Shown here one piece after another: positions 11,651-45,404 of a DNA stretch of 64,000 bases. Numbering within the stretch: position 1 is the stretch's first letter; every line of letters starts with the position of its first letter. The position numbers were made by a program, and so were the translations under genes. Under the pieces are notes generated by a model that saw only the letters and a list, made by a program, of their open reading frames with translations, did not search any database and was not told the DNA's origin. Location of the stretch: contig NZ_BBWQ01000001.1 in assembly GCF_001463885.1 (NCBI RefSeq), forward strand, positions 186,001 to 250,000, in the 5' to 3' direction. This DNA is from Aureimonas altamirensis (GTDB taxonomy: Bacteria > Pseudomonadota > Alphaproteobacteria > Rhizobiales > Rhizobiaceae).

Positions 11651-11725
11651 TGGGGCGTAGCCAAGCGGTAAGGCAGCGGTTTTTGGTACCGCCATTCCCT
11701 GGTTCGAATCCAGGCGCCCCAGCCA
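11651..11725 (+). tRNA. tRNA-Gln (TTG)
   Basis: A 75-base gene starting TGGGGCGTAGCCAAGCGGTA, with acceptor TGGGGCG/CGCCCCA, anticodon stem GCGGT/ACCGC, loop TTTTGGT giving anticodon TTG at 11683-11685, T-loop TTCGAAT and an encoded CCA end. It borders the AT-richer polysaccharide locus to its right. tRNA 3' ends are common integration points, but no second copy of this 3' end was found downstream. Confidence 0.97.
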
Positions 11726-11962: not shown

Positions 11963-14900
11963 ATGCATTCAGACCTGATTGATTCCGGTTACGTCCTTCA
12001 TGAGGGATCAAACGTCTGGATGCGCAATGGCTACGACAGTATCCAGTACAGTGACGGGGACGACTTTGAGAATGGCCTGGCGCGGGCCCTATCAAATGTT
12101 TCCGATCTAAGTGTGCTATCGGACGAACTTCGGCGTTATTGTGTAGACTGGCCGTCAACGTACCATTTATCTGCTCAGAGAGCGAACCTTCTGCGGCCGC
12201 TGGCCGACACGTTGACTGGCAGCATTCTGGAAATCGGGGCCGGCTGCGGGGCGATCACGCGTTTCCTGGGAGAGTTGGGAGCAGACGTTCTCGCTCTTGA
12301 GGGGACGGCACGGCGTGCCGAAATAGCCAGGCTGCGTACGCATGATCTGGACAACGTGACCGTGTTGGCGGAACGGTTCGGCGACTTCCAGACAAGCAGG
12401 AAATTCGACGTCATCACGCTGATCGGCGTCCTGGAATATGCCAACCTGTTTACGCCCGGGGATCAGCCTCATATCGAGATGTTGAGGCAGGCAAGAAAGT
12501 TGCTCAAGCCCAATGGGCGACTTATTATTGCAATCGAAAATCAGCTTGGCCTGAAGTATTTTTCCGGTGCGCCGGAAGACCATCTGGGTACCGTCATGTA
12601 CGGGGTTGAAGATCGGTATCGTACAAACGAGCCGCAGACCTTCGGACGAGCTGCGCTGGAAAACGCCATACGATCCGCAGGTTGGGCGTCTACCGAGTTT
12701 TTGGCACCGTTTCCCGACTACAAATTGCCACGCTCGATCGTGTCGCAGCGTGGTTTCGAGGACGAAACGTTCGACGGCGCGGCGCTTGCTAGCCAGAGCG
12801 TGGCATACGATCCGCAGATGCCACCGGCAACCGCCTTCTCTCTGGATCTGGCTTGGCCGGTGTTGTCGCGGAACGGTCTCGCCCTCGATATGGCCAACTC
12901 GTTCCTCGTCGTAGCTCATGATGGCAACTTCAGCTTTTCTAATGAGCGCACGCTCGCCTGGCATTACAGCACAAACCGCGTGAAACGCTTCTGCAAGCAA
13001 TCGGAGTTTGTCAGGGGGGAAGAGGGTAAGCTGTGGGTCAACACGCGCCTGCTGGGTTCACCAGACGATTCCAATGCTCGATCGGATACGCCGTTGACGC
13101 TGACCGTGTCGGATATCGCACCCTACGCATCTGGAAAGACGTTGGGTCAGGAGCTGGCATCGCTTCTGGCACAGGACAACTGGTCTTCGGCAGACATAGC
13201 CAAAAGCTTCTTCAAATATATTATAGCTGTTGAACAGATAGTATCCCGCGAGACAGGCGCGACGGTTAGGATTGCAAGCGAGAAAACTGAGGTTGGGTCT
13301 GCATACTTCGATTTAAACCCAAACAACATAATTTTAAAAATTGACGGCACCTTCGAGAAAATCGACCAGGAGTGGAGTTTTGATGGTCCGGTAACGTCAG
13401 GTTATCTTGTTTTCCGTTCCGTTATAAATATTCTTTCCGCGGTCGAGCGCTTGGGAAGCTCGCCCGATCTGCAGGAAATCACGCCCTATTCATTCATGAA
13501 GCTGGTGTTCGATCGCTTGGGCTGGACGCTCGCCGAGGCGGATCTGCGTGACTATGTCAGTGCGGAAACCAGCATCAGGCGGCAAGTTTTCGGGATCGAT
13601 GCACATGAGCGGGATCTCTCGACCTGGCTTCACACATGGGTGCCTGGACGTCCCAGCATTTTCGCTTTGGCGGCAACGCGGGCACGGGAGCTGAGCGCGC
13701 TCGCGGAAGAGAGGTCAGCGCGGCAGATTCAGATTGCAGAGCTCACAAAAAGCGTGGATGTGGCAACTGCCAGGCTTATCCAGTCGGAAAAAGCTCGGAC
13801 GGAATTGAGTGATCTCGGCACCTCTCTAGGTGCGGCAAATGCCGAGCTTATCGCGGTACGGACTGCAAATGCCCACCTGCATGGCGAGGTGGAGCGCCTG
13901 CGCGATTACAATCAGGCGCTGCTGAATTCAACCAGCTGGCGTTTTAGTTCGCCGGTCCGCTTCCTCGGTCACCAGATATGGCGTGTCCGACGGATGTTGG
14001 ATGTAGCGCCCTTGATCTCGAATCGATTGGGTGGACCCTCGAATGTTGCACGAAGAGCAGCATCGCTCTTGAAGCAGGAAGGTCTGACCGGAATACGGTC
14101 TCGGCTGCGGCACGTCGTGATGGAGGTTGACAGTCAAACGACAGCGCCTGGCATTGCCATCGAACCGCCGCGTGTAACCGTGCCGGCTCCCGCGCTTGTG
14201 ATCCCGTGGTACATCGATCCTGCACAAGGTGACACAAGTTCCGATATCGCAACTGACGGTCCGCGGATCTGTGTCATCCTGCGCATTCGCGCTAACGATG
14301 AACTCGATATTTTAGTGGAGCGACTGCGCCATATACCTCGCGAATTCTCGGTTCATATCATTGCTGAGGTCGACGACCGGGCCCTGCATAAGGGCTTTCA
14401 GGATAAGCTGCCCCAGGCTGTCCGCATCAGCACGCAAACTGCCGATCATGGTGAAAGCACTCAGGCCATCGTCGGGGAATTGCTTCGCAACGAACTGTCG
14501 GGCTACGACATCGTCGGGCTGTTCCATGACCTTGATGGCGGTAAGCGGAAGACCGGCGCGCATGCGGGCTCGGATCCGGAGCTGGATTGTCTTCTGGGTG
14601 ATGCCTCAGCAATTCGTCAGATAATCACTCGCCTTGCAGAGGATGCGGACGCCATTTTTGCAGTTGAGGACGCCGAGGCACTGAGGAAGCGTTTCGAACG
14701 CCCGGCCGATGCTGCATATGACTTGGGTGGGGAGGGTTTGCCCGCGCCTGCAGCCGATGCTGTGGAACACCTCGCCATGTGGGCTCGTGCAGACCGACTG
14801 AGCACGATACTTGAGACGTTGGGCGATGTCCTGCCCCGGGGGGAGCGGACCGGGCTACGAGTGCTCAACGTGACGCGCGGGGACTCCATCAAGGATTATC

Positions 14901-17350
14901 GCCAGCACGAAGAGCAGGTCGATTACCGCCAATCGATCCTGTACCAGGACATCAAGGTACTCGCGTACTATCTGCCACAGTTCCATACGACGCCAGAAAA
15001 TGACGAATGGCACGGCAAGGGTTTTACCGAATGGACGAAAGTTCGGGCTGCAAACCCGCTTTTTGAGGGACATTACCAGCAGCATATCCCGCATGACGAC
15101 CTCGGATACTACATTCTGGATAATCCGACTGTGCTGCATCAGCAGGCGGATATGATGCAGGCGGCCGGTATCCATGGAATGATTTTTTATCATTACTGGT
15201 TCGGCGGCAGGATGATACTCGAAGAGCCGGCACAGATGCTGCTCGAGAATGCCGACATCGACATGCCGTTCTGCTTCTGCTGGGCCAATGAGAATTGGAC
15301 GCGGCGATGGGACGGCAATGAAAAGGAAATCCTGCTCGGGCAGAAATATTCCCCAGACGACGCACGCGCCTTCATCCGATACCTAATCCCCTTCTTCAAG
15401 GACCATCGGTACATACGGGTGGAAGGCCGGCCGGCCTTGTATGTTTATCGGCCGTCTGACCTACCCACGGATGTACGGTATGTGGACATCTGGAAGGAGG
15501 AATGCGAGCAAGCAGGCCTCCCTTCACCTTATCTCGTGTCCGTCCTGACGCGCGGCGCGCTTGATCCGCGCGAGTTCGGCATGGATGCCGGTGTGGAACG
15601 CGTTCTGCATGACTGGACCGGGGGTGCCGTCGCCGAGCGCAAAAACAATCTCAGGCCGTATACACAGATCAACGGAACGGTTCTCGACTACGGGGACGTC
15701 GCAAGGTTCTATAGCAGTCAGACCGACCCGAAGGAGTTCACCTATTTCCGGTCTCTCGTTCCGATCTGGGATAATACCGCACGCTACGGGAATGGCGGCT
15801 ATGTGATCGACGCCAGCACACCGCAACTTTTTCAAGGTTGGTTGGAGGCGGCCATTGCCTACAGTCGAGACAACCTGCCCGCCGACCGACGGTTCGTGAT
15901 CGTCAACGCCTGGAATGAATGGGCCGAAGGCGCCCATCTGGAGCCGGATACCCGCTATGGCTACGCGTATCTGAATGCGGTCGGCCGCGCGTTGTCGATA
16001 CAGTCCTATGAGCAACAGGCCACGCGATCGATAGCGTCAACCCAGCCGGTCGCTCTGACCATAATGTGTACCTCGGCCTTGCGATCCGCCCTGCGCGATA
16101 ATCCAACCCTGGCAAAACGCTTCGAGCATGTTCTATCGAGGGTAAAGGATCTGCCGCACGTCGCCGTCCATCTGGATGATTCGAGTCGCGACCTGTTTCC
16201 GACTTTGGCTGATACGAGCGGCACGAGCGAGGGCATCGAGTTTGAGCTGGAAATCAGCCGGCCAAGCGTCTTCGCGCCGGATGCAATCGGCAAAATGGTT
16301 CAGGCGGCACTGGCGCATCCAGATGCCTCTATCGTCTGCAACGAGTATCACGGCGATCCATCCGTCATCGACGTGGAGCCGAACAATGCTCTACGAACGG
16401 AAGACGCCCTTCGTCAGCCGATGATGCTCAGGCGCTCCGCTGGCTCGCCCATCCAGCGAGCGAAGTTCTGCATGGCGACGGAAGCTTGGTGTTTCCCTTT
16501 GAGTGCGGATAGCCTGCCGGCAGAAGACCTGACCAAAGTCACGACGGTGGTCCGTGTACATACCAAGTCGGATCTGCAGTTGCTGAGGCGGGCTCTGAGT
16601 TGCCTGTGTGTCATGCGCAATTGCCTCAGTATACCAATGATCGCAGCTCAGGACTTTTTGCCCGCCCAGGTCGATCAGCTCGACGAGATAATCGCTGATT
16701 TACCTTGGCGCGAAGGTTGCGCGCCTATTATCACCCAGTATTTTTCGGAAGATTCGAAGGGTGATCTTCGATCGACGATGTTGAACGAGTCGCTCAAAAA
16801 TATCCGGGATGGGTATGCCGGCATCCTGGACTACGATGATCTGCTGTTCCCAGACGCGTATGGATGGCTGATTGATCGTTTGGCAACAACGGGGAAGGCC
16901 GTCAGTTTCGGACGTGTCTATTCTTCCTTGTATTCAAATCAGCGCTCAATCATCATCGCGCGCAAAAAAATATATACAAGCAGGGTTGATTACGCTGGTT
17001 TCGTCAACAACAATCATGCTCCTAATCATAGTTTCCTGATGGATATGTCGCTGATCGACATGACGGCTACGATTTATTATCCCGACCAGAAATATATGGA
17101 GGATTATTTTCTGCTTCTTCAATTGTTCGGGGAGCGTAACGTAGATTGGGACTCACTCGCCGCCGATTATTATGTTGGAGACTATATCCACAGCATCGAT
17201 CGGGTTCAGACGTTGGCACTTACCGATGAAGACACGCGCGCGGCGCTGATCGAGACCTATGACTACAGGCGGGACGAGTTGCGTGTCTCGTTCATGCAGC
17301 GGCAATTGATGAAACAGATCTCGATGGAACGTGAAGGCGCGGGGGCCTGA
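11963..17350 (+). CDS. Giant multidomain polysaccharide enzyme: methyltransferase, kinase-like, coiled coil, RgpF-like, WbsX-like, GT-like
   Basis: 1795 residues, apparently cytoplasmic, acting on a cell-surface glycan. In order: a class I SAM methyltransferase (motif ILEIGAGCGAITRF at about 88-101); a kinase-like lobe with YFDLNPNNIIL near 450 and IDQEW near 467; a coiled coil at about 572-660 ending in the membrane-binding-like NSTSWRFSSPVRFLGHQIW; an RgpF-like part (IVGLFHDLDGGKRKTGAHAG, about 855); a WbsX/GH99-like domain at about 996-1350 (LAYYLPQFHTTPENDEWHGK to NAWNEWAEGAHLEPD); and a C-terminal GT-A-like region with DYDDLLFPDAYGWL near 1623. The first three parts match the layout of WbdD, which caps and measures O-antigen chains. 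The role of the fused glycosyltransferase-like half is inference. Base composition is AT-richer than its flanks, suggesting acquisition. Confidence 0.85.
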   Translation: MHSDLIDSGYVLHEGSNVWMRNGYDSIQYSDGDDFENGLARALSNVSDLSVLSDELRRYCVDWPSTYHLSAQRANLLRPLADTLTGSILEIGAGCGAITRFLGELGADVLALEGTARRAEIARLRTHDLDNVTVLAERFGDFQTSRKFDVITLIGVLEYANLFTPGDQPHIEMLRQARKLLKPNGRLIIAIENQLGLKYFSGAPEDHLGTVMYGVEDRYRTNEPQTFGRAALENAIRSAGWASTEFLAPFPDYKLPRSIVSQRGFEDETFDGAALASQSVAYDPQMPPATAFSLDLAWPVLSRNGLALDMANSFLVVAHDGNFSFSNERTLAWHYSTNRVKRFCKQSEFVRGEEGKLWVNTRLLGSPDDSNARSDTPLTLTVSDIAPYASGKTLGQELASLLAQDNWSSADIAKSFFKYIIAVEQIVSRETGATVRIASEKTEVGSAYFDLNPNNIILKIDGTFEKIDQEWSFDGPVTSGYLVFRSVINILSAVERLGSSPDLQEITPYSFMKLVFDRLGWTLAEADLRDYVSAETSIRRQVFGIDAHERDLSTWLHTWVPGRPSIFALAATRARELSALAEERSARQIQIAELTKSVDVATARLIQSEKARTELSDLGTSLGAANAELIAVRTANAHLHGEVERLRDYNQALLNSTSWRFSSPVRFLGHQIWRVRRMLDVAPLISNRLGGPSNVARRAASLLKQEGLTGIRSRLRHVVMEVDSQTTAPGIAIEPPRVTVPAPALVIPWYIDPAQGDTSSDIATDGPRICVILRIRANDELDILVERLRHIPREFSVHIIAEVDDRALHKGFQDKLPQAVRISTQTADHGESTQAIVGELLRNELSGYDIVGLFHDLDGGKRKTGAHAGSDPELDCLLGDASAIRQIITRLAEDADAIFAVEDAEALRKRFERPADAAYDLGGEGLPAPAADAVEHLAMWARADRLSTILETLGDVLPRGERTGLRVLNVTRGDSIKDYRQHEEQVDYRQSILYQDIKVLAYYLPQFHTTPENDEWHGKGFTEWTKVRAANPLFEGHYQQHIPHDDLGYYILDNPTVLHQQADMMQAAGIHGMIFYHYWFGGRMILEEPAQMLLENADIDMPFCFCWANENWTRRWDGNEKEILLGQKYSPDDARAFIRYLIPFFKDHRYIRVEGRPALYVYRPSDLPTDVRYVDIWKEECEQAGLPSPYLVSVLTRGALDPREFGMDAGVERVLHDWTGGAVAERKNNLRPYTQINGTVLDYGDVARFYSSQTDPKEFTYFRSLVPIWDNTARYGNGGYVIDASTPQLFQGWLEAAIAYSRDNLPADRRFVIVNAWNEWAEGAHLEPDTRYGYAYLNAVGRALSIQSYEQQATRSIASTQPVALTIMCTSALRSALRDNPTLAKRFEHVLSRVKDLPHVAVHLDDSSRDLFPTLADTSGTSEGIEFELEISRPSVFAPDAIGKMVQAALAHPDASIVCNEYHGDPSVIDVEPNNALRTEDALRQPMMLRRSAGSPIQRAKFCMATEAWCFPLSADSLPAEDLTKVTTVVRVHTKSDLQLLRRALSCLCVMRNCLSIPMIAAQDFLPAQVDQLDEIIADLPWREGCAPIITQYFSEDSKGDLRSTMLNESLKNIRDGYAGILDYDDLLFPDAYGWLIDRLATTGKAVSFGRVYSSLYSNQRSIIIARKKIYTSRVDYAGFVNNNHAPNHSFLMDMSLIDMTATIYYPDQKYMEDYFLLLQLFGERNVDWDSLAADYYVGDYIHSIDRVQTLALTDEDTRAALIETYDYRRDELRVSFMQRQLMKQISMEREGAGA

Positions 17351-30784: not shown

Positions 30785-32528
<1,744 letters not shown>

Positions 32529-32580
32529 CCTGACCGCGCGGGCGTCGCCCGCGTCACCCAGCATTGCTGAATCTATTTCA

Positions 32581-32609
32581 TGCCGCCCGGCGCATCGCGC
32601 CGGGCGGCA
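32581..32609 (+). terminator. Terminator after ilvC
   Basis: A perfect 13-base stem TGCCGCCCGGCGC/GCGCCGGGCGGCA with loop ATC, followed by TTATTGTTT. Its strength and place 52 bases after the ilvC stop separate the ilv region from the giant gene. Confidence 0.8.
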
Positions 32610-32634
32610 TTATTGTTTGCGCAAAGACGATAAC

Positions 32635-32663
32635 TTGCTATATACGATATCATGTAGTATAAA
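32635..32663 (+). promoter_or_regulatory. Promoter of the giant GH18/Ig gene
   Basis: TTGCTA at 32635-32640, 17 bases, TATAAA at 32658-32663, in a strongly AT-rich block that stands out from the GC-rich surroundings. The likely start near 32670 leaves a short leader of about 30 bases with AGGG ahead of the ATG. Confidence 0.65.
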
Positions 32664-32702
32664 TTAAATACAACTATAAGTTTTTATTTTAGGGCGACGG
32701 CC

Positions 32703-35700
32703 ATGTCTGATATTAGCTTGACACTCGACGACATCATCAATCTGCAACGCAAGCAGAGCGTCACCCTCGTCAGGGCGGAGCACGGCGAGCTGGCCACCGG
32801 CACGCGACTCGAACTTTGGCGCGACAACGTCCGGGTGCGCAGCGTCGTCGTGGGAAGCAACGCGTCCTCCACGACTTTCAGCCTGTCCGGCGCCGACTGG
32901 GGCGCCGATGGCACGCGGACGTTCAAGGTGCGGACGATCGCGCCCGGCACCGGCGTTGCCAGCGCCTGGAGTGCAAGCGAAACGGTTCTGGTGGATACAC
33001 GTCCGCCCTCGCGCCCGACGGTTCTGTCGGTTTCCGGCGATAACAAGGTCAATGCCAGCGAGCAGTCCGCCGACATCCCCGTCGTCATCTCCCATGAGGC
33101 GGCCGTCAGTGGAACCACGATGGACATCCTGATGGACGGGGCGCTCGTCAAGACCGTGACCCTTCAGGCCGGGGCGCGCAGCACGACGGTCGATCTGCCG
33201 GCAGCGCTTTTCCAGCAAGTGTCCTCCTTCGATATCTCGGCCCGGCTGATCGACAGTGCCGCGAATGCCAGCCCGGTAAGTTCGGCGCGTTCCGTGCAGG
33301 TCGTCACGCAGACCCCGGCGGGTGTCGCAATGCCTGTGCTGGCAGGGGATAACATCGTGTCCGCGGCGGAGCGCGCCACGGTCACGACCGTTTCCATACA
33401 GCATGCCAGCACGCTTGGCGGCGGCAAGCTGGAAATCTGGCGCGACGGCGCGTTGCTGAAGTCGGTCTCGATAGCCGCAAACGCAACCTCGACCACCGTA
33501 CGTCTCAGCGGTGGAGACTGGGGCGCCGACGGAAATCACGTCTTTGAAGCCCGTGTCGTCGACAGCGCCGGCAACCCGGGCGATTTTGGTGGCTCTCAGA
33601 CTGTGAGGGTGGACACCACTCCGCCACAGGCCCCGACGTTTTCGGCCATTGCGGGCGATGGGTTTGTCAACGTCGCCGAGGCCACGCAGGGCGCGGGCTT
33701 CACGATCGCTCACGAGGCCGCAGGCGCCGGCGACAAGCTGGAGCTCTATCGCGACCGTGTGCTGATCAGGACCATCGATCTCGACGTTGGCGCTTCTTCC
33801 ACCTCTGTCACGCTGCTGGCTGGCGAATGGGGTACCGAAGGTGCGCATATGCTCCGGGCACGCGTTGTCGATGCCGCCGGAAATGTCGGCGCGTGGAGCA
33901 CGAACGCCTCGTACAGCGCCGATACGGCCACGCCCGCTGCCGCCGAGCTGCCGGTCATCGCAGGTGACGATCAAGTCAGCGCGGCGGAGAAGGCACAATC
34001 GACGGCGGTCATCGTTCGCCATGGCTTGGCCATGAGCGGATCGCGTGTCGAGCTGATGCGCGATGACGTCGTTGTGAAGACCGTCACCCTGGCTGCTGCC
34101 GCCTCTTCGACATCCATCAGCCTGACCGGGGCCGACTGGGGTAGCGATGGCGTCCATGCCTTCAAGGCGCGCCTGATCGACGCGGCCGGCAACGAAGGTG
34201 AATGGAGTGCGGTTCGGTCCGTCTCAGTTGCGTCGACGCTTCCCGAGGCGCCGGTGCTGGGTGTCTTCGCGGGCGACGGGATGGTGAATGCGGCAGAGCG
34301 GATCGCAGCATCTACCCTGTCCATTTCCCACGACGCCGCTTCCGCCGGAGCCCAGCTCGAACTGTATCGCGGATCGACGCTTGTGCGTCGCGTGACCATG
34401 ACAACGGGGGCGACATCCACAAATCTGCAACTGTCCGGGATGGACTGGGGCGCCGATGGTCCGGCCGCTTTTACGGCGCGGATCGTCGATGCGTACGGAA
34501 ACGCGAGCGAAGCGAGTGCCGTATCCAACGTGCTGGTGGATACGCGCGGCCCGCTTGCCGCCACACTGCCTTCCATCACCGGCGACAACAAGATCACCCT
34601 TGCCGAGAAGCAGGCAAACGTCACCATAGCAGTTGGCCACGAGGCCGCTACCGCAGGGTCGGTCCTGCAGCTCTACCGTGACGGCACCTTGTGGAAGACG
34701 GTTGCACCGGTGGCCGGTGCGACGACATCCAGCATCGTCGTTGCGCCTGCCGACTGGGGTACGCCGGGAACGGTGGCGCTCAAGGCTCGACTTGTAGATA
34801 CCGCGGGCAACGAGGGCGCCTGGAGCGTGGAGCAACGGGTTTCCGTGGCCGGCGCTCTTCCCGCCGCGGTGACGCTGGCGACGGTCGCCTCGGACGGGGT
34901 CGTCAACGCCGAGGAGCGGCGTTCCGTAACCTTGTGGCAGGTTGGCCATGAGGCCGCTCTGTCCGGAGCCGTTATCCAGCTGTACCGCGACGATGTGCTG
35001 GTGAAGTCCGTCACCGCAGGCGCCGGTTCTACGTCTACCGCTATTCCCATGTCAGGGGCCGAATGGGGTGCAGACGGACAGCATCAGTTCAAGGCACGCA
35101 TGGTCGATCCGACGGGCGGCGCGGGTGACTGGAGCGTCTTGTCAAGCATTCGGGTTGACACCAGTCCGCCTGCCGCGGTCGTGGTGCCCATCATCGCGGG
35201 GGATGATCGGATCAACGCTGTAGAAAAGGCGGCCGGCGTTCCGCTCGTCATACCGCATGAGTTGGCGCAGCCTGGCAGCATGCTGCAGATCTACCGCGAT
35301 GGCGTGGAGTTGCGGACGGTCGCGCTTTCGGACGCGTCCGTGAGCACGACGGTGACGTTGCTGGCGGAGGATGTCGGGGCTGACGGCGTACACGTCTTTA
35401 AGTTCCGGCTGGTGGACGGCGCCGGTAATCTCGGTGCCTGGAGCTCGGAGCGCCGTGTCCTCGTGGACACGGCGGCGGATGCCGCTCCCATCATCGAAAC
35501 CGTAGCCGGGGACGATTACGTCAACGTACTCGAGAAGACGAACGTCCGGTTCATCACGGTCAGCCATGAGGCTGCCGCGTCGGGAACGACGTTGTCGCTG
35601 TACAGGGACGGCGGCCTTTTGAAGACGGTGGTGCCGGCCTATGCGGCCACATCCACCCGCATCGCCGTCAACGCCGCAGATTGGGGCGCCGACGGTGCGC

Positions 35701-38700
35701 ATGTCTTCACGGCAAAGCTGATCGATGCCGCAGGCAACCAGAGCGACCTAAGCGCGGAGCGGCACGTCACCGTCCTGACGGGAACTCCGCTCGCACCGGT
35801 GCTCCCGATCCTCGGCACCGACGCGATCGTCAGTGCTGCCGAGAAGGCAGCTTCTTCGATGGTCTCCGTCACGCACGGGGCGATGAGCGAAGGGGCGACG
35901 CTGGAGCTTTATCGCGATGGCGTTCGCGTCAAGACCGTGCAGGTTGCTGCTGAGGCTACGGCCACGGACCTTGCGATGAGCGGCTCGGACTGGGGAAGCG
36001 ACGGGTTTCATGGCTTCAAGGTCCGCATCGTGGATGTCGCCGGAAACGTCAGCCAGTTTTCCACCGAACAGCGGGTTTCTATCGATACGATCGCGCCTCT
36101 GGCTGCCGTCATGACAGCTGTCGGCGATGGCAACGTCAACGCGGCTGAAAAGCTGGGTTCTACGATCGTCAGGATTTCGCACGAGGCGGCAACTGCGGGT
36201 TCGGTCGTACAGCTTTGGCGGGATGGCGATATCGTTCGTTCGGTTTCCGTTTCCGCCGGTGTCAGAGCGACGGCGATCACGCTCACCGGCAGCGACTGGG
36301 GGAGCGATGGTGAACACACGTTCAAGGCGCGCCTCGTGGACGGCGCCGGGAACGTCGGGGCGTGGAGCGGAGTGCAGGTCGTCACGGTTGCATCGTCCGC
36401 ACCGGGGGCGGTGACATGGGGTCCGCTCGCCACGGACGGCATGGTGAATGCCGCGGAGAGGGTGGCTGGGGTCGACGTTGCGATCGGACATGACGCGGCA
36501 GCACTCGGAGCGCGGATCGAAATCTACAGGGATGACAGGCTCGTAAAGTTGGTCGCTCTCGCCACAGGCGCCACCAGCACGACGGTATCCTTGGCCGCCG
36601 GCGAATGGGGCAGCGAGGGTACGCATGTCTTCAAGGCGCGCATGGTCGACGGGTCCGGGAATGCGGGGGCCTGGAGCGAGGTCCGGTCCGTTCTTGTGGA
36701 TAGTCTGGCGCCGGCCGCATCCTCGATTCTGTCGATCGCCAACAGCGGTTCCGTTGGCGCCGTTGAGCTCGCTGCGGTTTCTCATGCGACAGTGCGGCAC
36801 GATGTGGCGACCGCAGGTTCCATGCTGGAACTCTACAACGGCGATACGCTGTTCAAGCGCTATGATATGACGGTCGGCACAACGCAGACGACGGTCGACA
36901 TCGATCCGGCCGAATGGGGGCCTGACGGCATCTATACGTTCAAGGCTCGGGTGGTCGACGCCGCCGGCAATGCAGGTGCCTTCAGCTTCTCCAAGACCGT
37001 GACGGTTGCATTGCCCACCACGCTTTCCGGGCTTTCGGACGGGGTCGTCAACGGCACGGAACGCATGCAGACGAGTTCTGCGATCGTTTCGCACACCGCC
37101 CTAGGAGCCGGCTGGACGGTCGAGCTCTATCGCGACTCGACCTTGGTCACGACGGCTCCGGTGGTTTCCGGGTCAACGTCGACGGCGATCCCTGTGACGA
37201 ACTCTGACTGGGGCACCGAGGGCACGCACAGCTTCACCGCCCGTCTCGTCAGCCCGGCTTCGGTCTTCCGGACGACAGCCGCGCGCGACGTGATTGTCGA
37301 CTATACCGCTCCCGATGCCGCCTCTCTGGCATTGGGCGTGATTGCCGGCGATGATACGGTCACCGCAATCGAGCGACAGCAGTCGGCTGACGCCATCGTA
37401 ACCCATGCGGCGGCGGAGTCAGGAGAGCGTCTCAACCTGTACCGGGACGGCGTCCTGGTGAAGAGCATCGCGGTTACCGCCGGCTCGACTTCCACTGCCC
37501 TCTCATTCGCTGAATCCGATTGGGGCAGCAATGGCGCGCACGCCTTCACGGTCGGCCTCATGGATGCGGCAGGCAATGTCAGCGTGCAGAGCGCGGCTCG
37601 AACCGTCACCGTAAACCCCGCGGCAACGCTTCTCGATATCTCGGCCGCCGCCGTGCGCAATACTTCGGCCCTGCTTGTCTGGGATCGTTACACGCCGACG
37701 CAGGCAGGGCACTCCGTTGCATACCGGATATACAACGGCGCCACGTTGCTGGGGGAGACGACGGATCTTGCCTTTAATGTCCAGGGCCTGACTGCCTCAA
37801 CGGACTACGTGCTGTCGGTGAAGGTGGTCGAGCAGGGCGTATTGACTAACCTTGGCGAGCAGATCGCATTCCAGACGGCGGCGTCCAGCTGGTGGGATAT
37901 CCCGCAGGTCTATTCCCCCTATATCGATGTCGGGATCGGGCCGGTTACCTACAACAATCACCTCAAGATCATCGAGCAGTCCGGGCTCAAGGCTGTCACT
38001 CTCGGCTTCCTGGTCTTGAAGCCCGCTGGCTGGATCGACGCCGACCATGCGTCGCAGGTCACCAGCGCGGGTGTTCCAACCGGCAACACCAACGGCTTGC
38101 GGTGGGGCGAGTCGAACACCACCGTCTTCCCGTCGGACATGATTACCGAGACAGTTTCGGTAAAGGCGATGATTGCCGAGCTGCAAAGCAAGAACATCGA
38201 CGTCACCATAGCGCTTGGCGGCTTTTCCGGAAGTGAGCCGGCCCTCTACGAGACGAATGTCGACAAGCTGACGGCGATCTATCAGTCAATCATCGACGAG
38301 TACGGCATCAAGCACCTTGATATCGATATCGAAGGCGCTTCGCTGAACTCGCTGGAATCCGGCGCCTATCACGGCTTCTATCCGCAAGCCTATCTCAACC
38401 AGACGCACCTCAATCGTATCGAGGCGCTGAAGGCCATCAAGGAGGCAAACCCGGGAGTCTCCATATCCTTCACCGTGCCGGTTCTGCCATCGGGGATGCT
38501 GCCGAACGCAGTTGCCCTGATGCAGATGGTCAAGGACGAAGGTTTCGACCTCGATGTCCTCAACATCATGGCCATGGATTACGGGACGGGCGATCCGGAT
38601 CAGGGGCGCAACGCCGTCGAGGCCGCGCGCAACACCATTGCCCAGTTGCGGGGGCTCGGGTTGGCTACGAAGGTCGGCATCACGCCGATGATCGGCATCA

Positions 38701-41700
38701 ACGACGTGATCAGTGAGGTGTTCACGCTCGAGGATGCGCGCGAGGTCCTCGAGTTCGCGAAGGACAATCCCGATATCGCCTCGCTCGGCATCTGGTCGCT
38801 TGGTCGCGATCTTCCGAGCGATCCGGGCTCCAACGGCTTCACACAGGACGATGTCACCCCGAACGGCAGTGCGATCGTCGACCAGACGCGCTACGAGTTC
38901 TCGGGCATCTTCAACCAGCTATCCAATGCCGGCGCGGGGTACAATCCGGCCAGCGGCCTGACCGTCCTGGGTGTGGTTTCCGGCAACGATATCGTCGGTT
39001 CCGCCGAAAGCACGGCAACAACCCAGGTGACCGCCAACTTCCCGGCGGCCGTGGCCGGCTCCCAACTTCAGGTCATCCGTGACGGCATCGTCGTCAAGAC
39101 GCTCGCGCTCGCCGCAGGGAGCACATCGCGCGATATTGCGTTAAGTGGCGCGGACTGGGGTGCGGAGGGCGTCCATCTGTTCTCCGTCCGGGTGGTGAAC
39201 GGCAGTGGCGCCACCTTGTCCACCAGTGCACCGCGTGCGGTGACCGTGGATAAGACTGCGCCCACGGCGCCGGTGATCGGTCAGCAGGCCGGCGACGATG
39301 CGGTGGGATCACAGGAGGCGAGCAGCGGCCTCGCCTTTACCTTCACGCACGCCATCGCCGATGCCGGAACGAAGGCCCGGATTTTCCGCGACGGGGTTCT
39401 GGTCAAGACGGTGACGCTGGCAACGGATTCCACCGAAACGCAAGTCATGCTGTATGGCAGCGACTGGGGAGCAGTGGGTACTGCCGCCTCGCCGTCCTTC
39501 ACGGTTCAGCTCATCGACGCCGCCGGCAATGCCTCGGCAGCGAGCGCGGGGCATACCGTTGCAGTCTCGAAATACGCGACGCTGCAGAACTGGGACGCCG
39601 GCAAGAACTATCCGTACAATTCGACTGTTCAGGGCAGCCAGCCGTTCTACGTATTGCATGAGGGAGTCGTATATCGCACGAAGTGGTACGCCTCCCTCGG
39701 CGAGGAACCGGGCACGATCAGCGATCCCAGCTCGAACCCCTGGGAAGTTGTGGAAACGCTGCAAACAAATCCGCAGCCGCAGGGCTTGCGTATCCTGCCA
39801 ACGGCGTTGGCCGACACCTCGGTCATGCTCATGTGGGATGCTCACGCGGCAAGCAGCAGCGGCGCCGCGGTGACCTACAAAATCTACAAGGGCAGCGATC
39901 TGCTGACCACCACTGCGAACCTGTCCTATAAGGTCACCGGCCTGACTGCGTCGACGGCTTATCAGTTCTCGGTGCATGTCGCTGAGAATGGAACGGAGAC
40001 GCAGGTCGCGGAAAGTGTTTCGGTCCAAACGACCGCGTACCCGTTGTGGGACATCGCTCAATACTACTCCCCCTATATCGACATGGGACTTGGCAAGTCG
40101 CAAGGCCAGCTGGAAGCGCTGACCACGAGCAACGCCAAGCACGTGACCCTCGCATTCCTGGTGCTCAAGCCGGACGGATGGGTAAATTCCGATACGGCAG
40201 CGGCCGTCGATGCGAACGGCAACCCGACAGGCGTCACCCATGGCCTGCGGTGGGGCGAGGGCAACACCTCGATCTTCCCGGACGACAAGACATCGAACGG
40301 CAGCACCACGATCAAGGCGCTTATCCAGCAATTACAGGGCAGGGGTATCGACGTCACGATCGGGCTCGGTGGCTTCTCCGGCAGCGAGCCGGCCCTGTTC
40401 GTGACCGATGTGCAGGCGCTTACGGCGATGTACCAGTCGGTGCTGGACACCTACGGGGTTAAGCATCTCGACATAGACATCGAAGGAGCGTCGCTGAATT
40501 CGGTCGAGTCTGGCGGGTATCATGGCTTCTATCATCAGGCCTATCTGAACCAGACCCACCTGAACCGGATCGAGGCCTTGAAAGCCATCAAGGCAGCCAA
40601 TCCCGACGTGACTATTTCGTACACGATCCCGATCACGCCGGATGGGATGCTGCCGAACGCGGTTGCCCTGATGCAGATGGTCAAGGACCACGGCCTCAAC
40701 CTGGACGTCGTCAACATCATGGCGATGGATTACGGGGCCGGTGATTGGGGCCATCGCGGCGATCAAGGCCGCAATGCGATCGACGCGGCGCGCAACACCA
40801 TCGCGCAGTTGCGCCAGATCGGCCTTGCGTCCAAGGTGGGCATCACGCCGATGATCGGCATCAACGACGTCCAGACCGAAATCTTCACCTTGCAGGATGC
40901 GCAGGAACTACTGGCCTTCGCCAAGGACAATCCCGATGTCGCATCCCTGGGCATCTGGTCGCTCGGCCGCGACGAAACCGGTACCGTAGGTCAACTGACC
41001 GTGGGCGGAAGCGGGATCACGCAGGATCCATATGGATTCACCACCATTTTCGAAGGTATCACCGATACTGGAGCAGGCTATGACACCCACTCGGGCCTGA
41101 CGATCGTCAACACCTTGTCGTCCGACGATATCGTCAACGCAGCGGAAAAGACGAGCGGCGTGTCCTTCACGGTCAGTCACGCTGCGGCGGTGGCGGGCTC
41201 GGTGGTGAAGGTTTATCGCGACGGTGTCCTGATCAAATCAGTCACGGCATCTGCAGGAACGAATCAGACGGTGGTCACTCTTAGCGGAAGTGACTTCGGT
41301 TCGATCGACGGCGACTACACATTCGCCGCGTCGTTGGTATCCAATGGGGTCGAGGGAACCAGGAGCACGCTTCATCACGTGACGATCGATACGGTGGCCC
41401 CGTCGGCCCCGGTGATCGCGGCGGTTAGCGGAGACCATAAGGTCGTCGGTGGAGAGGGTGCCAGCGGCATTCCCGTTTCCTTCTCGCATGGTGCAGCGTC
41501 AGCCGGCTCAAAGCTCGACATCTACAAGGACGGCACGTTAATCCGCACCGTCACATTACTTGCCGGAACGACGCAGACATCGGTCAGCCTGTATGCGGGC
41601 GATCTTGGCCTTGCCACGGAGTCCAATACGACGATCGCACTGACTGCCAAGGTCCGTGATCTCGCCGGCAATATTGGCGGTACGTCGGCGACGGAATCGG

Positions 41701-43067
41701 TGATCGTCCAGAAATACGCCTTCGTTAAGCCCTGGACGGATGCGGTGGGTGCCTACCCGGGCGGCGGCCTGTACGCCACCTACGAGGGGCAGGTCTACAA
41801 GACAAAGTGGTATCCCAGCGACTACACGCCCCCTTCGGCCAGTTCGGAGTGGACGCTTGTCGGGCCCCTGTATTCCGATCCGGCTGTACCGAACGCGCCG
41901 ACACGCGTTTATGCAACGGGCATCAGCCAGACGGGCGCCTTCGTCATGTGGGACAAGGCGCTTATACCGGGCACCGGAACAGTGTCGGGTTACGACATCT
42001 TCGTCGACGGTACAAAGGTCGGCAGCGCGACGGACACCCAATTTGCATTGACCGGGCTGACGGCAGCACATACCTACTCTGTGACGGTTGTGGCAAAGGA
42101 CGAGACCGGGTCGTCGGTCGCATCCACTCCGCTGTCGGTGGTAACGCGCTCGACACCGGTGCCGGACATTGCTCAAACCTACACAATGGTCGCCGATGTC
42201 AGCCGGACCGATACTGACGTCACAAACTTCATCGGCCATTCGTCGTCCATGTCCACGAGCTACATCCACAACCATGTGGAGAACTCGGGCAACACGATCG
42301 TCTGGGCCGGAGGAACCTCCGCACTAATCGGCGTTGGCGGCCAGGACAGATGGATGAACTACGGTGCATCCGGTACCGGGGAAACCACCGGTCAAAGTCA
42401 GATCAGCGAATACCGCAGCAGTGGGGCGAAACCGGTTATCCTGTCGTTTGCACGTGATACCTCCGACAGCACCAGCGATCTGGCCTTGGGATACTCAACT
42501 TCGTCGGCACTCCTTCCCCAGCTGTCATACCTAACGAGCCGCTATTCTTCTAACTATGTCGACTTCACATTCTGGAGTTCCGACCTCAACGCATACGCCG
42601 CAAATGCGAGCAAGCATACAGTGCGCGATGTCGCCCTTCGCGATCTCGATGCCCAGAAGTCGGATGCCCTGCACATTTCCTACACGGTAGAAACGTCGAC
42701 GACCGGCCTCACCGCCGGCGCGATCCAGATGTTGCAGGGCGCCCATGCAAATGGTGTGAAGCTGGATGTGTTGAACATCCTGGCCGCGGACTATTGGGGC
42801 TCGGGAAGCGGGATCGACATGGGCCGCACGGCAATCGACGTCGCGCTCGACGCAATGCAGAAGCTCGACTCCGTCGGCTATACCGATACCAAGGTCGGCA
42901 TTCTGGTTCGCGCCGGTGCAAACGGTGGCGGGGGTACGTTCTCGATTGACGATGCACAGCAGATCTATGCATTCGCCAAGGAAAACCCGCATATCTCGGG
43001 CATCGGGCTGCTCAATCCCTATCAGGAAAACAACTACAACTACTCCAACATCTTCAACAATCTCTAG
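32703..43067 (+). CDS. Giant Ig-repeat protein with tandem GH18 chitinase-like modules
   Basis: 3454 residues, by far the largest gene here. Residues 1-1640 are sixteen Ig-like repeats of about 102 residues, each with a consensus like AGDxxVNAAEK, ELYRDGxLVKTV, DWGADGxHxFKARLVDAAGN. Then follows FN3 (1640-1725), GH18 (1728-2085), two Ig repeats, a chitin-binding CBM5/12-like domain (2289-2350, YPYN to VVYRTKWYASL); then FN3, GH18 (2446-2800), two Ig, CBM (3004-3060); then FN3 and a third GH18-like domain (3154-3454). Catalytic DxDxE is D1873/D1875/E1877 and D2590/D2592/E2594. The third domain has DFTFW instead. There is no signal peptide and no RTX repeat. A role in binding and cutting chitin or a similar glycan outside the cell is likely, but the export route is unknown. 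Confidence 0.88.
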   Translation: MSDISLTLDDIINLQRKQSVTLVRAEHGELATGTRLELWRDNVRVRSVVVGSNASSTTFSLSGADWGADGTRTFKVRTIAPGTGVASAWSASETVLVDTRPPSRPTVLSVSGDNKVNASEQSADIPVVISHEAAVSGTTMDILMDGALVKTVTLQAGARSTTVDLPAALFQQVSSFDISARLIDSAANASPVSSARSVQVVTQTPAGVAMPVLAGDNIVSAAERATVTTVSIQHASTLGGGKLEIWRDGALLKSVSIAANATSTTVRLSGGDWGADGNHVFEARVVDSAGNPGDFGGSQTVRVDTTPPQAPTFSAIAGDGFVNVAEATQGAGFTIAHEAAGAGDKLELYRDRVLIRTIDLDVGASSTSVTLLAGEWGTEGAHMLRARVVDAAGNVGAWSTNASYSADTATPAAAELPVIAGDDQVSAAEKAQSTAVIVRHGLAMSGSRVELMRDDVVVKTVTLAAAASSTSISLTGADWGSDGVHAFKARLIDAAGNEGEWSAVRSVSVASTLPEAPVLGVFAGDGMVNAAERIAASTLSISHDAASAGAQLELYRGSTLVRRVTMTTGATSTNLQLSGMDWGADGPAAFTARIVDAYGNASEASAVSNVLVDTRGPLAATLPSITGDNKITLAEKQANVTIAVGHEAATAGSVLQLYRDGTLWKTVAPVAGATTSSIVVAPADWGTPGTVALKARLVDTAGNEGAWSVEQRVSVAGALPAAVTLATVASDGVVNAEERRSVTLWQVGHEAALSGAVIQLYRDDVLVKSVTAGAGSTSTAIPMSGAEWGADGQHQFKARMVDPTGGAGDWSVLSSIRVDTSPPAAVVVPIIAGDDRINAVEKAAGVPLVIPHELAQPGSMLQIYRDGVELRTVALSDASVSTTVTLLAEDVGADGVHVFKFRLVDGAGNLGAWSSERRVLVDTAADAAPIIETVAGDDYVNVLEKTNVRFITVSHEAAASGTTLSLYRDGGLLKTVVPAYAATSTRIAVNAADWGADGAHVFTAKLIDAAGNQSDLSAERHVTVLTGTPLAPVLPILGTDAIVSAAEKAASSMVSVTHGAMSEGATLELYRDGVRVKTVQVAAEATATDLAMSGSDWGSDGFHGFKVRIVDVAGNVSQFSTEQRVSIDTIAPLAAVMTAVGDGNVNAAEKLGSTIVRISHEAATAGSVVQLWRDGDIVRSVSVSAGVRATAITLTGSDWGSDGEHTFKARLVDGAGNVGAWSGVQVVTVASSAPGAVTWGPLATDGMVNAAERVAGVDVAIGHDAAALGARIEIYRDDRLVKLVALATGATSTTVSLAAGEWGSEGTHVFKARMVDGSGNAGAWSEVRSVLVDSLAPAASSILSIANSGSVGAVELAAVSHATVRHDVATAGSMLELYNGDTLFKRYDMTVGTTQTTVDIDPAEWGPDGIYTFKARVVDAAGNAGAFSFSKTVTVALPTTLSGLSDGVVNGTERMQTSSAIVSHTALGAGWTVELYRDSTLVTTAPVVSGSTSTAIPVTNSDWGTEGTHSFTARLVSPASVFRTTAARDVIVDYTAPDAASLALGVIAGDDTVTAIERQQSADAIVTHAAAESGERLNLYRDGVLVKSIAVTAGSTSTALSFAESDWGSNGAHAFTVGLMDAAGNVSVQSAARTVTVNPAATLLDISAAAVRNTSALLVWDRYTPTQAGHSVAYRIYNGATLLGETTDLAFNVQGLTASTDYVLSVKVVEQGVLTNLGEQIAFQTAASSWWDIPQVYSPYIDVGIGPVTYNNHLKIIEQSGLKAVTLGFLVLKPAGWIDADHASQVTSAGVPTGNTNGLRWGESNTTVFPSDMITETVSVKAMIAELQSKNIDVTIALGGFSGSEPALYETNVDKLTAIYQSIIDEYGIKHLDIDIEGASLNSLESGAYHGFYPQAYLNQTHLNRIEALKAIKEANPGVSISFTVPVLPSGMLPNAVALMQMVKDEGFDLDVLNIMAMDYGTGDPDQGRNAVEAARNTIAQLRGLGLATKVGITPMIGINDVISEVFTLEDAREVLEFAKDNPDIASLGIWSLGRDLPSDPGSNGFTQDDVTPNGSAIVDQTRYEFSGIFNQLSNAGAGYNPASGLTVLGVVSGNDIVGSAESTATTQVTANFPAAVAGSQLQVIRDGIVVKTLALAAGSTSRDIALSGADWGAEGVHLFSVRVVNGSGATLSTSAPRAVTVDKTAPTAPVIGQQAGDDAVGSQEASSGLAFTFTHAIADAGTKARIFRDGVLVKTVTLATDSTETQVMLYGSDWGAVGTAASPSFTVQLIDAAGNASAASAGHTVAVSKYATLQNWDAGKNYPYNSTVQGSQPFYVLHEGVVYRTKWYASLGEEPGTISDPSSNPWEVVETLQTNPQPQGLRILPTALADTSVMLMWDAHAASSSGAAVTYKIYKGSDLLTTTANLSYKVTGLTASTAYQFSVHVAENGTETQVAESVSVQTTAYPLWDIAQYYSPYIDMGLGKSQGQLEALTTSNAKHVTLAFLVLKPDGWVNSDTAAAVDANGNPTGVTHGLRWGEGNTSIFPDDKTSNGSTTIKALIQQLQGRGIDVTIGLGGFSGSEPALFVTDVQALTAMYQSVLDTYGVKHLDIDIEGASLNSVESGGYHGFYHQAYLNQTHLNRIEALKAIKAANPDVTISYTIPITPDGMLPNAVALMQMVKDHGLNLDVVNIMAMDYGAGDWGHRGDQGRNAIDAARNTIAQLRQIGLASKVGITPMIGINDVQTEIFTLQDAQELLAFAKDNPDVASLGIWSLGRDETGTVGQLTVGGSGITQDPYGFTTIFEGITDTGAGYDTHSGLTIVNTLSSDDIVNAAEKTSGVSFTVSHAAAVAGSVVKVYRDGVLIKSVTASAGTNQTVVTLSGSDFGSIDGDYTFAASLVSNGVEGTRSTLHHVTIDTVAPSAPVIAAVSGDHKVVGGEGASGIPVSFSHGAASAGSKLDIYKDGTLIRTVTLLAGTTQTSVSLYAGDLGLATESNTTIALTAKVRDLAGNIGGTSATESVIVQKYAFVKPWTDAVGAYPGGGLYATYEGQVYKTKWYPSDYTPPSASSEWTLVGPLYSDPAVPNAPTRVYATGISQTGAFVMWDKALIPGTGTVSGYDIFVDGTKVGSATDTQFALTGLTAAHTYSVTVVAKDETGSSVASTPLSVVTRSTPVPDIAQTYTMVADVSRTDTDVTNFIGHSSSMSTSYIHNHVENSGNTIVWAGGTSALIGVGGQDRWMNYGASGTGETTGQSQISEYRSSGAKPVILSFARDTSDSTSDLALGYSTSSALLPQLSYLTSRYSSNYVDFTFWSSDLNAYAANASKHTVRDVALRDLDAQKSDALHISYTVETSTTGLTAGAIQMLQGAHANGVKLDVLNILAADYWGSGSGIDMGRTAIDVALDAMQKLDSVGYTDTKVGILVRAGANGGGGTFSIDDAQQIYAFAKENPHISGIGLLNPYQENNYNYSNIFNNL
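37621..39774 (+). repeat. Module copy 1: FN3-GH18-Ig-Ig-CBM
   Basis: First copy of a coding duplication of about 2.1 kb inside the giant gene. Long stretches agree with copy 2, for example LGGFSGSEPAL, KHLDIDIEGASLNS, YLNQTHLNRIEALKAIK, PNAVALMQMVKD, VGITPMIGINDV and ASLGIWSLGRD. Boundaries are approximate domain edges. Confidence 0.8.
39775..41878 (+). repeat. Module copy 2: FN3-GH18-Ig-Ig-CBM
   Basis: Second copy, same domain order and nearly the same length as copy 1. It differs by a short insertion at GDWGHRGDQGRN in the GH18 domain and by divergence in the flanking Ig repeats, so the duplication is not recent. Confidence 0.8.
41879..43067 (+). repeat. Module copy 3, partial: FN3 plus degenerate GH18
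   Basis: Only the FN3 and GH18-like parts are present; the gene ends before Ig and CBM. The GH18-like fold is traceable by LNILAADYWGSG (for NIMAMDYGTG), TDTKVGILVRAG (for KVGITPMIG) and IYAFAKENPHISGIGLLNPY, but it has diverged far from copies 1 and 2 and lacks the catalytic acid. Confidence 0.7.
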
Positions 43068-43074
43068 GGCCGAC

Positions 43075-43107
43075 CCGCCCCGGCATGCAATGCGCATGCC
43101 GGGGCGG
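43075..43107 (+). terminator. Large hairpin after the giant gene
   Basis: A perfect 14-base stem (43075-43088 with 43094-43107) and five-base loop, starting 8 bases after the stop. No T-run follows. It probably works together with the intrinsic terminator about 30 bases further on. Confidence 0.55.
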
Positions 43108-43137
43108 TGGAAGGCGAAAAGATTGACGCAATATTGG

Positions 43138-43174
43138 AACGCGAACCGGACCCCCGGTTCGCGTTTTCTCTTTT
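43138..43174 (+). terminator. Rho-independent terminator of the giant gene
   Basis: A perfect 12-base stem AACGCGAACCGG/CCGGTTCGCGTT (43138-43149 with 43154-43165), a four-base loop, then TTCTCTTTTT. Confidence 0.85.
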
Positions 43175-43666
43175 TCGGCCTGGCCGGGACGTCTTTGAAA
43201 CGCTGCGGTTCGTGCAGGGGCGGGGAGGGGTGTCGAAGGTGCGCAAGGCCGTAAGCGCGGCGCCGTGTCAGCGCACGGTATGATCGAAAACGATGAGCCG
43301 GTGGGGAAACCGTACCGAGGTTTTCGTGGAAACAGAAAACCCTTAGGGTGTCGTCTGGAGGGCGTGTGAGTGACGCGCCCAATCACTCCATATGCGGGCC
43401 TGGATAACGGCCTATGCCCTACAGGGCCAATGCGACGGCATTCCATCCGCAACAGCGGTCGAGAGCCATCGGCCCGCGAATGCCCCTGCGGGCTGCAATC
43501 TGTCTGAAACGTCCAAGGCAGGCGCTGGTGCGCAGGTCGTGCCGGGCCTGCTGGAGCCGTTCGCAATCACAGCCGTCGCCGCCTTGGCTGGCCGGCCGCA
43601 AAACGGCGTCGTCCGGCTAATCGCCGGCCCGCCGCAGTTTGCGCAACATTGTCTAAACTTGGTAAA
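43175..43666. other. About 490 bases without a supported gene
   Basis: Between the terminator of the giant gene and tRNA-Lys. Open frames here (a 94-codon plus frame at 43392-43676 that runs into the tRNA, and a 60-codon minus frame at 43419-43601) show no domain, no ribosome site and no coding-like composition. A possible structured patch around 43345-43382 (AACCCTTAGGGT, then GGGCGTGTGAGTGACGCGCCC) could be part of a small RNA but is not strong enough to call. Confidence 0.4.
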
Positions 43667-43742
<76 letters not shown>

Positions 43743-43967
43743 GAGCGCCTTCGCGCTGTGAACCGGTTGGCCCGTGCTCACGAGCGGGTTTCTAGTGGGT
43801 GAGGGCGGCGGTGTCCAGAGCTTTGCTGCACTTTTTTCGCAATGCAGCCAGACCTTCCCGGAAACGGTGCCTTTCAGGCCGAAAAGGGTGGGAAGCGGTG
43901 GCGCGCATGCTTATATTGGAGCTGCCAGACACGGCCTGAAGACAGGCCAGATTGATGGGGTTTCCAG

Positions 43968-45404
43968 ATGTATCCGCATACGCAGCTTCTGATCGCCGGC
44001 GAATGGGTCAACGGCGAGGGGGGCGACTCGATCGAGGTCGTCAATCCGGCAACCGGCGAAGTCATCGGTACGGTCGCCAAGGCCGCAACGTCCGATCTGG
44101 ACAGGGCCCTTGCCGCATCCGATTCGGCGTTCAGGGTTTGGCGCAAGGTACCTGCCGTCGAACGATCGCGGCTATTGCGGCGTGCGGCGGAAATCGTCCG
44201 CGAGCGCGCCGACGACATCGCCCGCACCGTCACGACCGAACAGGGCAAGCCGCTCGCCGAGGCGAAGGGCGAGGTTCTGTCCTGCGCCGACGTGCTGGAC
44301 TGGTCGGCCGAGGAAGCCCGCCGCATCTATGGGCGGCTCATCCCGCCGCGCGCGGACGGCGTAAACCAGCGTGTGCTGCGCGAGCCGGTGGGCCCCGTGG
44401 CCGCTTTCACGCCGTGGAACTTTCCCGTCAGCCAGGTGGTGAAGAAGGTGGCTCCGGCTCTCGCGGCCGGTTGCAGCATCATCGTCAAGGCGGCGGAAGA
44501 GACGCCGGCCTCTCCGGCGCTCCTGATCCGCGCGATCGTCGATGCGGGGATTCCCGCCGGCGTCGTGCAACTCGTCTATGGGTCGCCAGCCGAGATTTCC
44601 GGACATCTGGTGCCGCACCCGGTTATCCGGAAAGTGTCCTTTACCGGATCGGTGCCCGTCGGCAAGCATCTTGCCGCCCTGGCCGGACAGCACATGAAGC
44701 GCGCCACGATGGAACTCGGCGGTCATGCGCCGGTGATGGTGTTCGACGACGTCGACGTGGAGAGTGCCGCAGCGACGCTGGTTGGCTCCAAGTATCGCAA
44801 TGCCGGGCAGGTCTGCGTATCGCCGACCCGTTTCCTGATCCAGGAATCGATCTACGACGATTTCGTCGATCGCTTCGTGGAGAAGGCATCGGCGCTGAAA
44901 GTGGCCAACGGCCTCGATGACGGTACCCAGATGGGCCCTCTCGTCAACGAGAAGCGCGTCCAGGCCGTGGACGAGCTGATCGCCGATGCAGTGCGCGACG
45001 GGGCCGAGCTTTCGCTTGGCGGCGAGCGGATCGGCAACAAAGGCTCTTTCTACAAGCCCTCCGTTTTGCGCAATGTCGACAGGACCATGCGCATCATGAA
45101 CGAAGAGCCCTTTGGGCCGGTGGCGTTGATGACGCCCTTTGCCAAGGTGGACGAGGTGATCGAGGAAGCCAATCGCCTGCCGTTCGGCCTGGCGAGCTAC
45201 GCCTTCACGCGGTCGGCACGGACGGTGGAGACGCTGGCCGACTCCGTCGAAGCCGGCATGATGACGATCAATCATCTGGGCCTTGCGCTTCCCGAGACGC
45301 CGTTCGGCGGCATGAAGGACTCCGGCTACGGCTCGGAAGGCGGGGCAGAATCGATGGACGCCTACCTGACCACCAAGTTCGTGACGCATAACGCCCTGTA
45401 CTAG
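43968..45404 (+). CDS. NAD(P)-dependent aldehyde dehydrogenase, succinate-semialdehyde type
   Basis: 478 residues, the normal length of soluble ALDHs. Catalytic landmarks are in place: the oxyanion Asn in [14 protein letters not shown], the cofactor turn [12 protein letters not shown], the general base in [15 protein letters not shown] and the nucleophile Cys in [13 protein letters not shown], with EEPFGPVA downstream. The closest families I recognise oxidise succinate semialdehyde or alpha-ketoglutarate semialdehyde. Which of these is used cannot be decided here, since no GABA or sugar-acid genes are adjacent. It appears to be a single-gene unit between tRNA-Lys and a GC hairpin. Confidence 0.9.

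Follow-up and report, generated by a model that had tools for sequence, protein, structure and literature searches.

Is a reading frame of 3,454 codons, found in the 64,000 nucleotides of Aureimonas altamirensis DNA analysed here (the window), a real gene, and if so, what could its giant product do and how could it leave the cell? Counted from stop to stop the frame spans 3,469 codons, and 5' of the start codon it stays open for just 15 codons. G+C content at codon positions 1, 2 and 3 (0.61, 0.50 and 0.76, respectively) is coding-like. The frame is preceded by a gene (31509-32528) that we take, from its protein sequence, to be ilvC, and is followed by an aldehyde dehydrogenase gene (43968-45404, PF00171), all three being located on the same strand. 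Terminator-like hairpins flank the giant gene on both sides, in a scan whose total (7) is not above the shuffle mean (7.3). No sigma-70-type promoter was found scanning the region 32300-44000 (shuffle mean 3.0). Elsewhere in the window, a 1,795-aa ORF (11963-17350) combines a complete WbsX glycosyltransferase domain with a methyltransferase domain.

Domain layout and conservation of the giant gene

The protein opens with sixteen Ig-like repeats, followed by two units organized as FN3-GH18-Ig-Ig-CBM-like, and ends with an FN3 domain and a third GH18 domain (Table 1). In the whole protein Pfam identifies three fn3 stretches and two of Glyco_hydro_18. An HMM trained on seven of the protein's own repeats finds 20 Ig-like repeats; residues 9-1643 hold 16 of them, and one pair each lies at 2091-2289 and 2804-3003. 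The first 16, which confirm the initial annotation, occupy about half the chain length and share a mean pairwise identity of 39.1%. In NCBIfam the repeats correspond to Ca_tandemer NF033510 (152.4 bits, cut-off 50). They thus score as calcium-stabilised extender repeats, and are predicted to bind calcium; the notion of a long reach, advanced in the initial annotation, is consistent with this score. Four of the repeats were compared by sequence to PDB, and no solved chain was found at E <= 0.01.

Table 1. Features of the giant gene and its flanks (window coordinates)
Feature	Coordinates	Strand	Remarks or basis
AT-rich stretch	32611..32702	+	from terminator-like hairpin after ilvC to start codon
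Whole gene	32703..43067	+	3,454 aa, 357 kDa, pI 4.76, zero cysteine
Ig-like repeats 1-16, about 103 aa each, Ca_tandemer/Big_13 type, proposed extender arm	32727..37622	+	HMM, NCBIfam
FN3 domain a	37623..37883	+	Pfam fn3 and repeat register
GH18a, DIDIE at residue 1873 (38319-38333)	37884..38951	+	Pfam, motif
Ig-like repeats 17 and 18	38973..39569	+	repeat HMM
CBM5/12-like domain 1	39570..39782	+	Pfam score below cut-off
FN3 domain b	39783..40037	+	Pfam fn3 and repeat register
GH18b, DIDIE at residue 2590 (40470-40484)	40038..41090	+	Pfam, motif
Ig-like repeats 19 and 20	41112..41711	+	repeat HMM
CBM5/12-like domain 2	41712..41888	+	Pfam score below cut-off
FN3 domain c	41889..42152	+	best fn3 stretch, residues 3065-3146
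GH18c, degenerate, C-terminal; DFTFW replaces DIDIE (about 42561-42575)	42153..43064	+	alignment, profile, model
Terminator-like hairpin 3' of giant gene	43136..43167	+	hairpin scan

The units recur at a spacing of 2,148-2,163 bp, the offset of about 2.1 kb expected from the initial annotation. Unit 1 (residues 1641-2360) aligns with unit 2 (2361-3062) over 689 aa at 54.3% identity (score 1778), and unit 3 (3063-3454) is 29.2% and 30.7% identical to units 1 and 2, with scores of 256 and 308. In 200 shuffles the maximum was 85 for the pair of units 1 and 2, and 84 for the comparisons involving unit 3. The domain order and the duplication of the module, both proposed earlier, are borne out by Pfam and by these alignments. 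Of the two full copies and the partial one that had been described, the full copies stand; the third is made of FN3 and a complete GH18-sized domain.

Homologs were searched in 21 Aureimonas genomes, the window's own included, by using as query the GH18b region with its flanks. Matches were found in five genomes, and correspond to three giants (3,454, 3,456 and 3,456 aa) and to the relatives hosted by genomes G004 and G005. Searching genome contigs, one relative was found, the A. altamirensis A31 ortholog (NZ_JAMQCO010000007.1); in a plasmid search 48 records were found, all under 60% identity. Long repeats may assemble wrongly, and the catalytic motif is lost in GH18c, as might be expected of a collapsed assembly or of a gene in decay. 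Yet the two other giants have the same 20 Ig repeats in order and no stop, one genome being a single contig, and comparisons of the whole gene in the three genome pairs gave dS values of 0.495-0.683 and dN/dS values of 0.105-0.113. Artefact and pseudogene are so improbable on these grounds as to be ruled out, and the frameshift envisaged in the initial annotation as a possible refutation is countered by homologous frames of the same size, intact in both genomes. The ORF at 32703-43067, unbroken as first described, is a real gene, under purifying selection (dN/dS about 0.11).

Since number and order of the repeats are identical in the three giants, the Ig array is old and stable. Constraint varies along the chain. 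In the three genome pairs dN/dS was 0.033-0.058 for GH18b, 0.060-0.075 for GH18a, 0.101-0.115 for GH18c and 0.138-0.155 for Ig repeats 1-16. GH18a and GH18b are the two most constrained among the measured regions over 150 aa; for the last 125 residues of GH18c the value was 0.047-0.052.

The G004 relative is a 973-aa ORF (L039:6463-9384) located directly 3' of ilvC. It is made of 8 Ig repeats and 142 residues that align to the C-terminal part of GH18c with 53% identity, and lacks DxDxE; its N-terminal region is somewhat hydrophobic (maximum 1.57). The G004 aldehyde dehydrogenase homolog lies on another contig, and the 3' neighbour is unlike that of the window. This form is read as an internal deletion, in preference to a separate origin. 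The G005 relative (770 aa) is found at another locus, no such gene being present within 1.5 kb after the G005 ilvC, and has a CBM5/12 match over the cut-off. In the alignment of the GH18c C-terminal part the L040 row is out of frame, and was disregarded.

GH18 domains and CBM5/12-like modules

Searched alone against PF00704, GH18a and GH18b score 30.3 and 32.8 bits, and both pass the cut-off of 29.6. The two domains are 66.6% identical. DxDxE is the catalytic motif of GH18 chitinases, and is kept as DIDIE in GH18a and GH18b of all three giants. At E <= 0.001 only four PDB sequences match GH18b, all chitinases, the best being 9buf, exochitinase 1. The two catalytic GH18 domains of the initial annotation are therefore catalytic-looking, by motif and Pfam score, and the kept DxDxE suggests that both are active on chitin.

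The initial annotation missed that the last module includes a full pseudo-GH18. GH18c alone has no Pfam match, and is picked up by the GH18 family profile (8.3e-29) and linked to 9buf by phmmer (5.3e-14). Structure predictions covered GH18c and an Ig-CBM piece, leaving GH18a and GH18b aside. The GH18c model matches 9buf (Foldseek E 1.8e-09); its mean pLDDT is 58.5, and it is usable in the later part only, residues 1-95 being below 50. GH18c reaches the normal end of a GH18 domain, and hence is not a fragment. Set against GH18a and GH18b, GH18c shows DFTFW in place of DIDIE, has lost the GGFSG stretch and lacks the W of IWSLGRD. DFTFW is found also in the A. altamirensis ortholog L036, and G001 has just two DxDxE matches. 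As DxDxE is turned into DxTxW, GH18c looks catalytically dead.

The two chitin-binding domains claimed at first are unconfirmed at curated thresholds. The regions score 13.4 bits against 26.2 required for PF02839, and 13.3 against 27 for PF14600. The model of the Ig-CBM piece (mean pLDDT 54.5) has no PDB match at E <= 0.001, and lends no support to the CBM call. The two modules are hence named CBM5/12-like only, and their binding to chitin is a prediction.

Relatives outside Aureimonas and the route of export

The initial annotation placed the protein at the cell surface, and overlooked the route of export as the main question raised by the locus. No signal peptide is found by hydropathy, as the 19-residue maximum is 0.58 in the first 78 aa, and the highest value in the whole protein is 1.43; the frame, closed 15 codons before the start, leaves little room for a longer N terminus. 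The protein has neither the RTX pattern GGxGxD nor a sortase motif, and no anchor or retention domain, at the N terminus or elsewhere, was recognised by hydropathy, sortase motif or Pfam. These features lend no support to a cell-surface location; outside the cell the protein may be displayed or released. Cysteine is missing in all 3,454 residues, against 18.6 expected from 18 other ORFs of the window (14 with a Pfam match, one ilvC, three unscanned). Among the relatives, cysteine counts are zero in G001, G002, G004, G179 and G356, one in G005 and G387, and two in G395; those of G387 and G395 may lie in starts placed too far upstream. The pI of the giant falls within the range (3.2-4.9) given in PMC3034196 for 90% of putative RTX proteins.

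Counting the window's own genome, matches were found in 2 of 297 genomes of the family, 4 of 397 of the order, 2 of 385 of the class and 7 of 398 of the phylum, one of the latter being G387 again; all these sets are samples of larger groups. Outside Aureimonas the matches in these samples all fall in frames of at most 790 aa. The gene surroundings were inspected for G179, related through 46% identity to GH18b, and for G356, G395 and G387, related through the GH18 family profile; six more distant class and phylum matches were left out. All four have, near the GH18 gene, an ABC gene of PrtD type that exceeds the curated cut-off; it is adjacent in G179, G356 and G395, and at 1.8 kb in G387. HlyD was confirmed beside the three relatives scanned, G387 being outside that scan. 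The G395 ORF begins with a portion that fails to align with its relatives and seems to be out of frame; this portion was kept as found. An LHAxDG tail, lacking at the giant C terminus, is present in three of the four.

A recurring domain, centred on LDFG, is found in short GH18 relatives (L041, L085, L087, L040), at both ends of the G179, G356 and G387 proteins and once in G005, and is absent from the giant. Pfam gave no match to it in G179 and G005, the two proteins scanned. In a 1.1-Mb genome of the same class, two matches to this GH18 family sit close to each other, their frames measuring 611 and 574 aa (G1007:C1:23841-26594; L089, L090).

Type I substrates are usually, though not obligatorily, encoded next to their cognate ABC and HlyD genes. 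No exporter genes are found beside the giant gene. Of the 21 Aureimonas genomes, 15 have a PrtD gene over the cut-off; the five carriers of the GH18b region all lack one. An LssB-like ABC gene is found at E <= 1e-150 in five of the 21 genomes, which are exactly the carriers; the exporter scores 634.8 bits, below the cut-off of 693.1. In G000, G004 and G005 the gene adjoins HlyD- and TolC-like genes, and at the G000 locus no obvious substrate is found near these flanks. Stops at the G004 and G005 genes fall in the first 60 residues of an over-extended query, and the family match begins at residue 66. All 21 genomes were included in an ilvC tree, where a split with support 98 sets the five carriers apart from the other genomes; as a single gene tree, it is weak on species relations. 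Since the carriers lie on one side of the split, the co-occurrence counts as a single correlated gain or loss, not as five.

At least two other type I systems are found in the genome of the giant. A HlyB-type exporter (974 bits, cut-off 725.55) lies near a 1,447-aa RTX protein ORF (L045:2975-11881). An LssB-type exporter over the cut-off was also noted, near an ORF combining Mur ligase and D-Ala-D-Ala carboxypeptidase (L047:4377-8273, 9473-11689), which is either an odd neighbour or a fusion. LapA-like retention was also considered, and discarded. LapG-type PF06035 is present in all 21 Aureimonas genomes, carriers and non-carriers alike, and is thus uninformative.

As the four outside relatives examined are all near a type I ABC gene, type I export is probably the route, and is the best supported by gene neighbourhood; it stays a proposal, because the giant gene has no linked exporter. 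The exporter may perhaps be the LssB-like one, encoded elsewhere in the genome. The giant C terminus resembles an ordinary GH18 end; its last 125 aa are strongly constrained, and the C-terminal part is kept in G004.

Proposed function and comparison with known systems

On the whole, it seems reasonably probable that the giant is a secreted rod that binds and cuts chitin, is exported by a type I system, and carries in GH18c a non-enzymatic domain. Made without a signal peptide, the chain would be exported in one step. Outside the cell calcium, judging from the repeat family, would stiffen the 16-repeat Ig arm, and the C-terminal half would present two active GH18 domains, spaced by Ig pairs and CBM5/12-like modules. 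The latter may hold the chain on chitin, as that of fungal walls or arthropod cuticles. GH18c would probably be used for binding, or would cap the C terminus and carry the export signal. A bolder version, in which dead GH18c was repurposed as export and cap domain of a type I adhesin-enzyme and the G004 form is an adhesin reduced to arm and signal, is conceivable but doubtful; in it GH18c would have given up catalysis and kept its C-terminal part, a chitinase fold thereby becoming or bearing the secretion signal. Three of the 21 Aureimonas genomes have GH20 genes. None was found in the five carriers, which makes growth on chitin doubtful; chitin is less likely a food than a target for attachment or for competition with fungi. 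Among N-acetylglucosaminidase families the search covered GH20; a GH73 enzyme is listed as beta-N-acetylglucosaminidase in an A. altamirensis study (PMC9781493).

The lack of GH20 fits also a protein that is primarily a giant adhesin, in which Ig arm, CBM-like modules and pseudo-GH18 attach to a chitinous surface, hydrolysis playing a secondary part or serving for release only. The 16 repeats, about half of the chain, score as adhesin repeats, and the G004 form keeps Ig repeats without a catalytic motif. However, DIDIE is kept in GH18a and GH18b of all three giants, both domains being the most constrained of the measured regions over 150 aa, and the N terminus has no recognised retention or anchor domain; a primary adhesin is unlikely. 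The carriers without GH20 could alternatively act on a substrate other than chitin, as another GlcNAc-containing glycan. The GH18 family does not fix the substrate, as the relatives G005 and G179, 40% and 46% identical to GH18b, are both uncharacterised. This is quite improbable, as the PDB sequence relatives are all named chitinases, and CBM5/12-like modules are found in the giant (below cut-off) and, over the cut-off, in G005.

It is likewise rather unlikely that the giant leaves the cell by lysis, in vesicles, or by some signal-peptide-free route other than type I. The gene has no linked exporter, PrtD is under the cut-off in the carriers, the RTX motif is missing, and the chain simply ends like a GH18 domain, all features compatible with such a route; against it stand the relatives encoded near type I genes, and a chain both acidic and cysteine-free. 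If a type I system does export the protein, systems of this type are able to transport a multi-enzyme rod of 357 kDa, and its pseudo-GH18 terminus would allow a test of what a non-RTX secretion signal consists of. A leaf-associated species could in this way become able to grip and cleave the chitin of fungi or arthropods. In a genome study of ash-leaf A. altamirensis, type I secretion genes are reported in two of three strains, and GH18 is absent from the main text and tables (PMC9781493). In the open-licence literature nothing was found linking GH18 chitinases, type I secretion and Ig-like domains, and nothing relevant on chitinases and type I secretion in Methylobacterium.

Among known systems, the type I-linked GH18 proteins of other Hyphomicrobiales (G179, G356, G395, G387) share with the giant the GH18 family, an FN3-like stretch before GH18 and, at least in the proposed route, an ABC exporter, which they have nearby. 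They differ in that their ORFs are just 711-778 aa long, carry a single GH18 and LDFG-type end domains, and lack the Ig array. Streptomyces venezuelae exochitinase 1 (9buf) and Pyrococcus furiosus chitinase active domain 2 (3a4w, 3a4x), the best matches to the GH18b sequence and the GH18c fold, are single domains of 311-315 aa. The glycanases PlyA and PlyB of Rhizobium belong to another enzyme family, have another substrate and are not giant. As proposed for the giant, they are described as non-RTX polysaccharide hydrolases exported by type I PrsDE (PMC3034196).

Giant RTX adhesins similarly feature a long tandem beta-sandwich array, whose extender repeats are described as stiffened by calcium (PMC7493085). 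The A. altamirensis protein has in contrast no RTX motif and no recognised retention module, and carries hydrolases at the far end; by the nonapeptide-repeat test it is no RTX adhesin. Paenibacillus ChiW, as described in PMC5132251, has in one chain two GH18 domains, Ig-like domains between them and a carbohydrate-binding module. ChiW is surface-expressed in a Gram-positive organism and features CBM54, whereas the giant combines FN3 domains and 20 Ig repeats with a third GH18 that looks dead, and no anchor could be recognised in it. Two kinds of protein that are usually considered separately, the extender arm of giant adhesins and the multi-catalytic chitinase, are joined in one chain lacking both signal peptide and RTX. 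By analogy, the giant may work like a cross of a multi-catalytic chitinase such as ChiW and an extender-type adhesin.
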